This document shows positions 1,794-12,900 of a DNA stretch of 64,000 nucleotides, piece after piece (positions within the stretch are counted from its first letter, which is position 1; the number at the start of each line of letters is the position of its first letter). The stretch covers positions 2,108,001 through 2,172,000 of the forward strand of contig NZ_CP133038.1 of assembly GCF_033060595.1 (NCBI RefSeq), in the 5' to 3' direction. Position numbers and translations under genes: made by a program. The DNA comes from Pyramidobacter sp. YE332 (GTDB lineage: Bacteria > Synergistota > Synergistia > Synergistales > Dethiosulfovibrionaceae). Below the pieces are notes generated by a model, which did not search any database, was not told the origin of the DNA, and was given only the letters and a program-made list of their open reading frames with translations.

Positions 1794-3356
1794 TTACAGA
1801 CGCCCGTTCCGCTCGTCGGCGTTGAGGGCCTTCCAGAACCCCCAGCAGGAGAAGAACATGATGAACGCGAACGGAGGCGCCGTGCACAACGAGATGGTCT
1901 GAATGTTGATCAGGCCGCCGGTGGTCAAAAGCACCACGGCCAGAGCGCCCATGAGGATGCCCCAGATGGCCATCTTGCTCTTGGACGGATCGCTGGTGCC
2001 GTGCTGGCAGTACGCGGCCAGCACGAACGTGGCCGAATTGGCCGAAGTGACGAAGAACGTCGTGATCAGCACGATCATGCCGTAGGACATGGCGGTGCCG
2101 AGAGGATAGTGCTTGTACAGCTCGAAGGCGCCGACGGAAACATCCTTGATCACTTCCGCCGCGATCTTGACGTGTTGGACCAGCTCCAAATGCAGCGCCG
2201 AAGTGCCGAAGATGGCGAACCAGACCGCGCTGCCGAGCGCGGGAACGATCAGAACGCCGGCGATGAACTCGCTGATGGTGCGGCCGCGGGAAATGCGGGC
2301 CACGAAAGCGCCGACGAAAGGCGCCCAGGCGATCCACCAGGCCCAGTAGTACAGCGTCCAGTTGGCAAGATGTTTCTGGTACCCGGCGCCGTAGGGATCC
2401 ATCATGAAACTCTCCTCGACCAGGCCGCTGAGGAAATCGCCGATGCCGGTCATGAAGGATTCGACGATGGGCAGCGAGGGGCCGACGATGAACATCAGGG
2501 CCATGAGGATGAAGCAGACGCGGATGTTGAAGTCGGCCACCTTGGAAATGCCCTTTTTGATGCCGAGCACGGCCGAACCGGTGTAAAGCACGGCAAGAAT
2601 CGCAATGATGACGACCTGAACGAACGTGGTCTTGGGCAGTCCGAAGACGGTATTGGCGCCCGAGTTCAGCTGCAGCGTGCCGAGGCCGAGAGACGTGGTG
2701 ATGCCGCCCAGCGTGGCGAACGTGGCGAGAATGTCGACGACCTTGCCGAACGTCCCCTTGACGGCCTTTTCACCGACCAGCGGGATGAAGATCGAACTGA
2801 TCAGACCGGGCGCGTTGTAGCGGAACTGGTAGTAGGCCAGCGGCATGGCGATGACGGCGTAACCGGCCCAGGGATGCAGACCCCAGTGGAAAAAAGAAAT
2901 CTGCAGCGCGTCGCGGGCGGCCTGAACGGACTCGGGCGCCGCGCCGAAGGGCGGATTGGTGAAATAAATCAGCGGCTCGGCGGCGCCGTAAAACACCAGC
3001 CCCACGCCCATACCGGCCGAGAACAGCATGGCGAACCAGGCCAGATTGCCGTATTCGGGGCGGTCCTCCGCCCGGCCCAGGCGGACTTTGCCGAAACGGC
3101 CGGCGGCGATGAAAAGACAGAAGATGACGAAAACGTTCATGAAGAACATATACCCGGCGCCGAAATAAGTCGTCAGGCCGTTGAACAACGACTTGGCGAA
3201 GGAGCCGAAAGAATCGGGCGACAGCAGCCCCCAGAGGACCGCCGCAAACGTGATCAATATCGAAACGTAATAAACCGTGTTGCTCTTGGTATCGACGCAG
3301 CCTGACCAGTCGAGCCGGCCGTGGTCGAGAGGATTCCGCGAAACTTTGTCCGACAT
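1794..3356 (-). CDS. BCCT family betaine/carnitine/choline transporter
   Basis: This is a 520-residue inner-membrane transporter of the betaine-choline-carnitine family. It has about 12 hydrophobic segments, the sodium-site-like SAGMGVG motif near residue 113, and the family Trp-rich stretch WAWWIAWAP near residue 337. The ribosome site AAGGAG precedes ATG by a normal distance. It lies directly downstream of, and on the same strand as, betaine/glycine-reductase-type B-component genes, separated only by a terminator hairpin. This arrangement is known for betaine reductase loci, where the BCCT protein imports the substrate. I infer glycine betaine as the likely substrate; carnitine or choline remain possible. 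Confidence 0.93.
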   Translation of the reverse strand: MSDKVSRNPLDHGRLDWSGCVDTKSNTVYYVSILITFAAVLWGLLSPDSFGSFAKSLFNGLTTYFGAGYMFFMNVFVIFCLFIAAGRFGKVRLGRAEDRPEYGNLAWFAMLFSAGMGVGLVFYGAAEPLIYFTNPPFGAAPESVQAARDALQISFFHWGLHPWAGYAVIAMPLAYYQFRYNAPGLISSIFIPLVGEKAVKGTFGKVVDILATFATLGGITTSLGLGTLQLNSGANTVFGLPKTTFVQVVIIAILAVLYTGSAVLGIKKGISKVADFNIRVCFILMALMFIVGPSLPIVESFMTGIGDFLSGLVEESFMMDPYGAGYQKHLANWTLYYWAWWIAWAPFVGAFVARISRGRTISEFIAGVLIVPALGSAVWFAIFGTSALHLELVQHVKIAAEVIKDVSVGAFELYKHYPLGTAMSYGMIVLITTFFVTSANSATFVLAAYCQHGTSDPSKSKMAIWGILMGALAVVLLTTGGLINIQTISLCTAPPFAFIMFFSCWGFWKALNADERNGRL

Positions 3357-3398
3357 TCAAGTGACTCCTTTCACAACGGGAAGGAACGTCTAAAACAA

Positions 3399-3438
3399 GG
3401 GGCTGAAATTCGCGTTTCAAAAACGTCCTTTCAGCCCC
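3399..3438 (-). terminator. Hairpin between the reductase genes and the BCCT gene
   Basis: A perfect 10-bp stem (GGGGCTGAAA with TTTCAGCCCC) and 20-base loop is followed on the minus strand by TTGTTTTAG. It probably lowers, rather than abolishes, read-through into the BCCT gene. Confidence 0.65.
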
Positions 3439-3495
3439 TCGAACTTACTTGCCGCGTCTCTTGTCGAGAGGATTCCGCTCCGCCGTTCCGTCAGA

Positions 3496-4812
3496 TCAGA
3501 ACTTGGAGGGGAACACCGTCGGCTCGGCGATGTCCGTCGCCAGAGCGTTCAGAGCCGCCTCGACGCGGCTGGTGCGCAGCTGCCATTCGGCCTCGGCGCT
3601 CAGTTCGGGATCGCCCAGAGGATAGGGAACGGACACCGTCTGGACCATGCGGTTGGCGCCGACGGTCTTGGCCACGTCGATCAGATTGCACATCACGACC
3701 ACGGGAATGCCGGTTTTCTCGATTTCTTTGCCCATCGTTGACCCGCAACGAGTGCACGTGCCTCAGGTGGCGGTGAGCACGACGGCGTCGACCTTGGCGG
3801 CGTGAAGCTCGGCGGCGATCTCCTTGCCGAATTTGGCGGCAAAAGCCTGGGTCGTGCCGGTGCCGACGGTCACATAGTAATAATCGTAAAGCTTGCCGAT
3901 CTTGCCCTGCTTCTCGAAGTAGCGCATGGCGTCCACAGGCACGCCGCGGTCGGGAATGTGGCACATGGCGGCGGGGTCGAAGCCGGCGTGGATCGTCTTG
4001 AACACGCCCTCGGGCAGATTGTCGAGTTTGGAGATGTCGTACTTGCCCCACTTCTGCGCGGAAGCGCTCTGAATGTGGTCGGGGTTGTCCACGGGCACGA
4101 CGCCGGAGGACGAGACGAGAGCGACGGTGGCGTGAGCCAGATCCTTGAGCGCGGGCGCGGGCGGGATCTTCTCCATCTTGGGGATGATCAGCTCGGTCTG
4201 GAACGGCTCGCCCTTGAGCTTCTTGAGCAGCATGTCGATGACGCGGTCGGCGGCGATGCGTCCGTCGGGCTGAGGGATCTCGGCGCGGATGCCGCGGGGG
4301 AAGTAGCCTTCCTGGGCGGCGGGCAGGAGCTCTTCGCCCTTGGCGATCTTCTTGGCGAATGCGGCCATGGCGGTCACGTCGTCCTTCATGAAGGTCGCCT
4401 TGCGGCCGCCCTTGAAGATGTAGCACACGGATTTGTACTCTTCGACGCCGGGATTTTCCTCGTTCATGGAGGTGATCACGGGCACGTGATAGCGCTCGGC
4501 CACCGCCTTGCACATGATGCCGCAGCCGACGCCGTAGCGTCCGGCCATGAAGGCGGGACCGGCGAAGAAAATATCGAATTTCTTCGTGTCGAGCCAGGCG
4601 AAGATCTCTTTCAGGGCTTCGTCGGTGTGATTGGTGATGTAATTGTCGCCGCAGACGATGGTGTTGGTGACTTCGATGTCGGGCTTCACCATCTGGTTCA
4701 GCATCATCGAACAGCCGACGAGATTGTCGTGGAAAATGGGCTTGGCGTCGGCCGCGTCTTCGCCGCCGACCTGGCCGAAAAACTGGTTGATGTAGTGAAT
4801 GGCTTTCAGCAT
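3496..4812 (-). CDS. grdH: Selenocysteine-containing B-component beta subunit of glycine/sarcosine/betaine reductase
   Basis: This is a 438-residue protein read through an in-frame UGA at codon 350 (complement 3763-3765). The residues after the UGA give U350-G-T-C-T-R-C356, the UxxCxxC motif of GrdB/GrdF/GrdH. The protein continues in frame for 88 residues (GIPVVVMCN...) to a UGA stop at 3496. A gene caller that treats UGA only as stop would split it into a 349-residue and a 79-residue piece. The B component binds the amino acid substrate and transfers its carboxymethyl group to the GrdA selenoprotein. A ribosome site (GGGGAGG) precedes ATG, 20 bases after the alpha subunit gene. The BCCT neighbour favours betaine specificity (grdH); grdB or grdF are alternatives. 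No grdA, grdC or grdD lies nearby. Confidence 0.9.
3735..3751 (-). promoter_or_regulatory. Bacterial SECIS element candidate of grdH
   Basis: Exactly 11 bases after the UGA codon, a 6-bp stem (UCGUUG with CAACGA) closes a 5-base loop CGGGU. A short hairpin with loop guanines just 3' of UGA is the form of bacterial SECIS recognised by SelB. It overlaps codons 355-360. Confidence 0.7.
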
Positions 4813-4832: not shown

Positions 4833-6139
4833 TTAAAAATCAGCGCAGGTTCTCTTGGAGTAACCGCTGATGTGGTTGGCGCAGAACATGCCGTTGTTTT
4901 CCATCACGAAGGAACCGTCGGAACGGATGCAGCCTTCCCAGCCGCCGGAGTTCCCGTCGCGGGCCAGAGCTTCGAGCTCGCCGATGACTTCCATCTTCGG
5001 GAACTCGTACATCTGGGACACGTTGCCGGTGGTGACCAACGCGTCGGTGGCGGGGTTCATCGAAACGAGGGGCTGCGAGGCGCCGTCGCGGCCGGTGCAC
5101 TCGTCCGACAGGCCGATGGTCTTGATGCCGAGGCGCTCGAGCTCGACCAGCATGGCCGTGTAATCGACGTCGGGGTTGCCGTACCCTTCTTCGACGACGA
5201 CCGCGGCGTCGACGCCGAGCGAGGCGCAGATCTGTCCGGCCATTTTGGCGCAACGGACTTTTTCGTCCATCTTCACGTTCAGCGTGGACATGACGACGCC
5301 GAGGAAATTGATGGTCTTGCCGTGCTGTTCGTAGAGCTTCTTGATCATCGGATTGACGGCGAACTCGTAAGTCGAGATCTTCGACGACGTGGGCATGAAG
5401 GACCCCGACACCATGCAGCCGTCGAGCAGTTCGTTGGGGTGCATGAAGGTGGGCAGGATATGGTTGCCGTCCCAGCCGTAGATCAGCGTGTTGTAGCCCA
5501 TCGTCTCCATCTGGGTCTGCGGCTGAAGCAGGTAGACCACGCGGGGCAGTTTGTCCACTTCGGGGCCGCGCTCGTTCAGGGGGGCAGGTCGTAGACTTCG
5601 ATGTTCTCGGGCTCGAGGTCTTTCACGCACTGGCCGACGTATTCGGCAAGGCGCATGCCGGCCCAGCGCAGGGCGTGATTTTTCTTCTGCTGCTCGCGCT
5701 TTTCAAACTCTTCGTCGGTGTCGGCCACCAGCACGAGATTGACCATGTCGCCGAAAATGGTGTGATGCTGATACGCGCCGCCCATGGCGATCAGGCCGTC
5801 CTGGAATCCTCCCCAATGTTCGCCGACGACGAGCAGCGAACAGTCCTGCAGGCAGTGGGTGCGGCCGGAACCGGCGATCTCCATCTCGGACAGCACGCCG
5901 GGGAAGATCCCGTGGCCGCCGGACACCTTGCAGCGCATCTCCACCGCTTCCTTGACGGGACAGAGCACCACCTCGTCGCCGGGATGCACGATCCTCAGAT
6001 CGGCGGTGGTGATGTGCTCGTCTTCCTTGACGACCTTGAGCAGTTCTTCCTTGTTGACGGTGAGAATGCCCTTGCTGTAGCCCGTATGGTCGCCGAACTT
6101 GATGTCGGTCACATGAAAGGCTCCGATTTCAAGTCTCAT
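4833..6139 (-). pseudogene. grdI: B-component alpha subunit (pyruvoyl proprotein) of betaine/glycine reductase, frame broken
   Basis: Two adjacent frames together encode one 435-residue GrdE/GrdG/GrdI-type proprotein. The first 187 residues (MRLEIGAFHV to EVYDLPP) run into UGA at 5576. The next frame continues without a gap as LNERGPEVDKLPRVVYL. The switch falls in a run of six C on the minus strand (plus-strand G run 5579-5584); one extra base restores the gene. Family members self-cleave before a Cys that becomes the pyruvoyl group; Cys242 in LLDGCMVSG is my best candidate in the restored protein. The start has a good ribosome site (GGAG). A homopolymer sequencing error is the simplest explanation, with true loss or slippage as alternatives. 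The motif assignment is from memory of the family. Confidence 0.8.
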
Positions 6140-11476: not shown

Positions 11477-11545
11477 TGTCGTTGTTCAGTGATAAAGTCC
11501 CCCATAACTGTTCCAAGAAAATGTCACTCTGAGATAATACCGTTC

Positions 11546-12900
11546 ATGAAACAGGAGCGAATGACATTGTCACAAAAGGAACTGGATCGTATCAGGATTA
11601 TCGGAGCGCTTGTCGAGGGACGCATGACGAACAGGGAGGCGGCGGAGAAGCTGGGGCTCTGTCAACGGCAAATCATCAGGATCAAAAAGAGGTTCGTCGT
11701 TCAAGGGGCGGCGGGGCTTGTTCACGGCAACCGCGGCAGAACGTCTCGGCGCAGGATCGGAGATGAGGTTCGGGAGTCGGTGCTGAAGGCGTATGAGGAG
11801 GTCTATTACGATTTCAACTTCTCTCACTTTGCGGAATGCCTGAACGAACGAGAGGGGATCGGGATCAGTCGTTCGAGTGTCGTCCGCATTCTGAAGGACG
11901 AGGGGATCAGGAGCAAGAAGAGTGCGCGGCGGCGGCCGAAGCTTCACCGTTCCCGACCGCGGAAGGTGGCCGCGGGGATGTTGTGGCAGACTGACGCCAC
12001 GTCGTTTGAATGGTTTGGCAGGGGGAACGGGCGTGCGACGCTGCACGCTTATATTGACGATGCGACGGGGATCGTGACTGGCGCCTGTTTCACTGAGAAC
12101 GAATGTATGGCGGGCTATGTCGCCGCGCTGGGGATGGGGATCGAGGGGTATGGGCTGCCGATGGCGATTTACAGCGACCGGCATACGATTTTCCGCTCTC
12201 CAAAGGCACGGGCGCAGGATGATGAGGATCGGATCGAAGGGAATGAAGAAAATGAAGGGAATGAGGCGGGGAAGGGGGAGCCGTTAAGTTGTTTCGGACG
12301 GGGGCTGAAGGATCTTGGGATCGGGCAGATCTTTGCCTTGACGCCGGAGGCGAAGGGGCGTGTCGAACGTCTTTGGAACACGATGCAGGACAGGCTGCCG
12401 GGGAGCTGAGGCTGCTTGGCGTCTCGGATATCACGGCGGCCAACGAGGTTTTGCCCAAGCTCATCGCCAGGCACAATCGGAAGTTTGCCGTCACTCCGGC
12501 TGAGGGAGAGGACGTTTATGTGAAGCCGGAAGGAAAAGTCGATTTGGATTTTCTCTTTGCGCGTCGCGAATCTCGCAGGACGGATCACGGCGGCATGATT
12601 TCCTACGGAGGTCGTCGGTACGTTCCGGCGGCGGACGATTGCCTCGGGATGGCCAAAACGACGGTTGAGGTGCGTGAAACGTCGACCGGGCGGATCTGGG
12701 GTGTTTCCAAGGGCAGACGGATCGAGATGAAGGAGGTTGAAAGTCAAAAACGAGTCGACTCCGATGAGGCATCGGCAAAGAAACGGAAAAGCGGGCTTGT
12801 GAAAGCGCACAAGCCCGCTCCGGACCACCCATGGCGGCGTGGCGTCGTCAAAAGGCAGGGATATCATAGCACATGTCGGGATAAATGTACGTTCGCGTAG
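11546..12900 (+). pseudogene. IS1202/ISNCY family transposase, frameshifted
   Basis: An N-terminal helix-turn-helix (MTNREAAEKLGLCQRQIIRIKKR) is followed by an rve-type DDE core: Asp150 in WQTDATSFEW, Asp211 in IYSDRHT, Glu274 in KGRVERLW. Near 12398 (CCGGGGAG) the frame must slip back one base to continue as GELRLLGVSDITAANEVL. With one base restored the protein is about 451 residues, the usual size for this family. The break lies in a four-G run, so a sequencing error, true decay or regulated slippage are all possible. The last residues read through a terminator-like hairpin and may not be native. Confidence 0.85.
12790..12819 (+). terminator. Hairpin inside the 3' end of the transposase gene
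   Basis: A perfect 12-bp stem (AGCGGGCTTGTG) with a 6-base loop lies within the annotated 3' coding end. No T-run follows. It may block read-through from the element. Confidence 0.5.

Follow-up and report, generated by a model that had tools for sequence, protein, structure and literature searches.

Does the gene with an in-frame UGA codon at this locus continue through that codon by inserting selenocysteine (Sec), or does it end there? The window, meaning the whole stretch of 64,000 nucleotides analysed from Pyramidobacter sp. YE332, carries on its minus strand a grdH-like gene (Table 1) that starts with ATG at 4812 and terminates with TGA at 3498-3496. Its product is 438 amino acids long when UGA350 is translated as Sec. 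The gene lies between a GrdI-type partner upstream and a betaine-type BCCT transporter downstream. The reading favoured here, with high confidence, is a bacterial selenoprotein gene of an ordinary kind, most likely grdH, whose product is the selenoprotein B subunit that binds the substrate in glycine betaine reductase.

Table 1. Features of the locus, with window positions, and the tRNA-Sec gene, with its genome position
Feature	Position	Strand	Basis
grdH-like gene	3496..4812	minus	Translation; profile scores (TIGR01918, NF040795, PF07355)
In-frame UGA, codon 350	3763..3765	minus	Predicted Sec of UxxCxxC, codons 350-356; homologues have TGA at this codon
Putative SECIS hairpin, 6-bp stem TCGTTG/CAACGA, loop CGGGT	3735..3751	minus	Sequence; synonymous-site conservation; paired changes in paralogues
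BCCT transporter, betaine type	1794..3356	minus	NF047988 best, 588 bits against a cut-off of 650; TIGR00842 above cut-off
grdI-like partner subunit (PF09338), frame-broken in this assembly	4833..6139	minus	
Run of six C, one missing G, then premature TGA at 5578-5576	5579..5584	minus	
tRNA-Sec gene (L009)	G000:C1:1467886-1467980		

The UGA codon and the sequence beyond it

The first-pass annotation assigned the gene to the GrdB/F/H type and placed a UGA at codon 350 within a UxxCxxC motif, without giving the strand. Both statements hold. The product scores 601 bits with TIGR01918 (GrdB/F/H selenoprotein B), far above the curated cut-off of 65.45, and 507 bits with PF07355, and the minus-strand translation around codon 350 is TATUGTCTRCGS, with the motif in U-G-T-C-T-R-C-G. 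The further claim that ordinary gene callers would split the gene is correct for open reading frames called with translation table 11, which give a 349-residue frame ending at 3763. It does not extend to every pipeline, because a single grdH coding sequence spans the UGA in the annotation of the Enterococcus gilvus orthologue. Curated libraries already hold models for the family, TIGR01918 and NF040795. Genes with an internal UGA are well known to be prone to misannotation (PMC13188914).

The 349-residue frame is also what would remain if the UGA were a true stop, or had arisen by nonsense mutation or through an error of sequencing, and the protein were truncated. Against this, TGA occupies the Sec codon in all aligned homologues, from Synergistota to Clostridia and in many genera of two phyla, except in two half-length paralogues of the same genome (L027 and L028), which have Cys codons in that column. 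The 88 codons past the UGA have changed mostly synonymously, for example by 45 synonymous against 8 non-synonymous differences relative to L081, a pattern indicating that they evolve under protein constraint. Termination at UGA350 is rejected in view of the homologous TGA codons and the constraint on the downstream codons; with a putative SECIS element and the Sec machinery both there as well, the probability of a truncated product is negligible.

The hairpin and the selenocysteine machinery

The annotation had also described a 6-bp hairpin exactly 11 bases past the UGA, and the count bears this out. The stem starts at 3751 and is perfect, with the strand TCGUUG at 3751-3746, the loop CGGGU at 3745-3741 and the strand CAACGA at 3740-3735. 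Its geometry (a 5-nt loop beginning after 17 nt, on a 6-bp stem) agrees with the published bacterial SECIS model (PMC13188914). A fold of 42 nt includes the hairpin at -9.6 kcal/mol, the SECIS criterion being -7.5 or lower, and a fold of 60 nt prefers a competing structure. For about 0.7% of the TGA triplets in the window, a perfect 6-bp stem follows at a distance of exactly 11 nt, and for about 3% one follows at 8-16 nt, so the hairpin of a single sequence is modest evidence. The RNA fold of the single sequence, with a z of -0.7, is likewise uninformative, and the significance of the hairpin was therefore judged from codon conservation across species.

Synonymous codons were compared in 64 distinct genes of Synergistota and Bacillota. 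Arg355 is encoded by CGT in 63 of the 64 and Cys356 by TGC in all of them; Ala358 uses GCA in 52 of 53 genes, and ACG codes for Thr359 in 59 of 63. Synonymous entropy along the gene averages 0.87 and drops to 0.18 over the six codons starting at 355, by far its lowest value. The bases CGTTGC-GGN-GCAACG recur nearly unaltered in the aligned homologues, and the UGA together with the hairpin is common to homologues of many genera from Synergistota to Bacillota. In paralogues of the same genome, the stem has changed with its pairing kept: a T-A pair is replaced by A-T in L024, where the stem reads CGATGC/GCATCG, by C-G in L025 and by G-C in L026. This conservation of the hairpin across phyla is strong evidence for its function as a putative SECIS element.

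The genome has two contigs and 2,795,328 bases in all, of which the larger contig accounts for 2,777,081. The selA, selB, selC and selD genes predicted in the first-pass annotation were all found by profile search of the genome, each above its curated cut-off. SelA scores 553 bits (cut-off 268), selB, its pieces included, 368 bits (cut-off 242) and selD 344 bits (cut-off 125); selB comes after selA, the two reading frames overlapping by four bases, and selD has an in-frame UGA of its own. The tRNA-Sec, with anticodon UCA, reaches 66 bits against a gathering score of 47. Codon conservation and this machinery together argue that Sec is inserted at UGA350, and the grdH-like gene very probably reads through the codon.

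About 70 bases separate the tRNA-Sec gene from an insertion-sequence copy at G000:C1:1468051-1469508. The same element occurs in the window, where its transposase-like gene occupies 11489-12900, and near-full copies of it number about 13 genome-wide. Six of the eight copies checked show the same split of the transposase into two frames, and one copy, with one G more at the GGGG near 12399, contains a single frame of 516 codons. A programmed frameshift in this transposase is possible.

Identity of the reductase

Within the GrdB/F/H type, the gene can be narrowed to GrdH-like (betaine) by its best model, its position in the tree and its partner, though the strict NF040795 cut-off is not reached. 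NF040795 (betaine GrdH) is the top model among the specific ones, with 669 bits (668.6) under a cut-off of 775; NF040794 (sarcosine GrdF) gives 510 bits and TIGR01917 (glycine GrdB) 473 bits against a cut-off of 602. None of the strict cut-offs of the GrdH, GrdF and GrdB models is reached by the product. The NF040795 cut-off is passed by the proteins of E. gilvus (797) and A. noterae (805.5). Because 669 bits is below the strict GrdH cut-off, betaine is the presumed substrate.

In the tree, the gene joins the annotated GrdH of E. gilvus at a fork supported 100/100, and it is separate from GrdF, from the GrdB beside grdE of the same genome and from the fluoroacetate reductase (far) type copies. 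GrdH of E. gilvus pCR1A (WP_114525747, NF040795) is 55% identical to the window gene, has its UGA in the same UGTCTRCG context and stands in the same gene order, grdI-grdH-BCCT. The loop region of the window gene reads GGG-TCA (Gly-Ser) where the common form is GGT-GCA (Gly-Ala), and for this reason its stem is one pair shorter at the top. The partner GrdI has GSFMPTSSK where GrdE and GrdG have GNCVxxCDK and thus carries no pyruvoyl-site cysteines; the GrdI of E. gilvus likewise has neither cysteine of GNCVxxCDK at that place. Betaine GrdI has been described as a non-proprotein partner (PMC10838667). Between grdH and the BCCT gene (window 3388-3445), the minus strand carries GGGGCTGAAA...TTTCAGCCCC, an inverted repeat with TTGTTTT after it, which forms a terminator-like element within the cluster.

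A selenoprotein for sarcosine (GrdF) or another substrate would also be matched by NF040794, would be consistent with the unmet NF040795 cut-off and could have the same kind of neighbour. The sarcosine grdGF genes of Peptoclostridium acidaminophilum, which share family and Sec motif with the window gene, also adjoin a BCCT transporter, so this neighbour is unspecific for betaine. The GrdH model is nevertheless ahead by about 160 bits and the gene groups in the tree with GrdH rather than GrdF. P. acidaminophilum GrdF is 46% identical to the window protein and its GrdG has the GNCVAPCDK cysteines, which are present in GrdE of the YE332 genome too and absent from the window GrdI. The genome moreover has a separate glycine-type grdE/grdB pair, whose GrdB at G000:C1:736-739 kb belongs to the same family and passes TIGR01917 (648 against 602 bits), and another GrdF/G-like pair. 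A substrate other than betaine is accordingly unlikely. The profile scores, the tree, the GrdI without pyruvoyl-site cysteines and the betaine-type BCCT neighbour point with good confidence to a GrdH (betaine) function.

The fluoroacetate reductase FarB/FarE (PMC10838667) represents distant members of the family on a separate branch of the tree, and the FarB-like copies of the YE332 genome have UxxSxx where the window gene has UxxCxx. Two fluoroacetate-reductase-like clusters were seen, at G000:C1:360-363.5 kb (L025, L028) and G000:C1:2651-2656 kb (L026, L027). In both, FarE is above the NCBIfam cut-off and has two GrdB-like neighbours, one containing a UGA in UxxSxx and the other half-length, with Cys at that position. 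For Synergistota, a published comparison that included Pyramidobacter piscolens already describes selenoprotein GrdB genes and their SECIS elements, betaine-type copies beside opuD among them (PMC10838667).

The first-pass observation is correct but ordinary: the system is already known and its mechanism is not new. Sec insertion by SelB and the SECIS element is an established mechanism, and the reductase chain is established for the family. On this reading, SelB with Sec-tRNA(Sec) would bind the hairpin just past UGA350, and Sec would be inserted in place of termination. Within the UxxCxxC site, this Sec would then attack betaine bound by GrdH/GrdI, with release of trimethylamine, and the carboxymethyl group would move to the selenoprotein GrdA and next to GrdCD, giving acetyl phosphate. 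The genome also encodes GrdA, which carries a Sec UGA codon itself, and homologues of GrdC and GrdD, and thereby the pathway's later steps.

The frame break in grdI

The break in grdI matters more to function than the UGA does. Near relatives have CCCGCCC or CCTGCCC where this assembly has six C in a row; one G is missing, and a stop follows after 187 codons. The sequence is CTGCCCCCCTGA here, CTGCCCGCCCTGAAC in L060 and L061, and CTGCCTGCCCTGAAC at the same site in L080, the relative Pyramidobacter sp. C12-8. YE332 is a rumen isolate of Synergistota, and its assembly was made from PacBio RS II reads only, with no short-read polishing described (PMC11008178). The break is either an error of this PacBio-only assembly or a lesion of the strain.

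If grdI is truly broken, the betaine reductase of YE332 would not work, and a Sec-competent GrdH would be left without a working partner. The early stop speaks for this, as does the comparison with C12-8: over 8.3 kb shared, the gap in grdI is the only indel within a gene, and the local error rate is therefore not obviously high. On the other side stand the type of assembly and the gap between two C triplets, a plausible site for a consensus error. The grdI gene is unbroken at this site in every relative examined, and there is no other decay in the second half of grdI or in grdH. A non-working enzyme is a possibility to be taken seriously, if not the probable case. It concerns the function of the operon and can be compatible with selenocysteine insertion at UGA350 as the best explanation of that codon.

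A conserved programmed frameshift in grdI was considered and rejected: the relatives examined use one frame, and three congeners do not have the six-C run. That the break is real in YE332 and some full-length GrdI arises by -1 slippage at CCC-CCC-UGA, making this an operon with two different recoding events, slippage in grdI and Sec insertion in grdH, is highly improbable.

The significance of the locus lies in annotation and in rumen physiology. With GrdH as assigned, Pyramidobacter would reduce betaine in a selenium-dependent way and could be a source of trimethylamine, and the state of grdI bears on whether YE332 is said to have the complete betaine pathway or to lack it.
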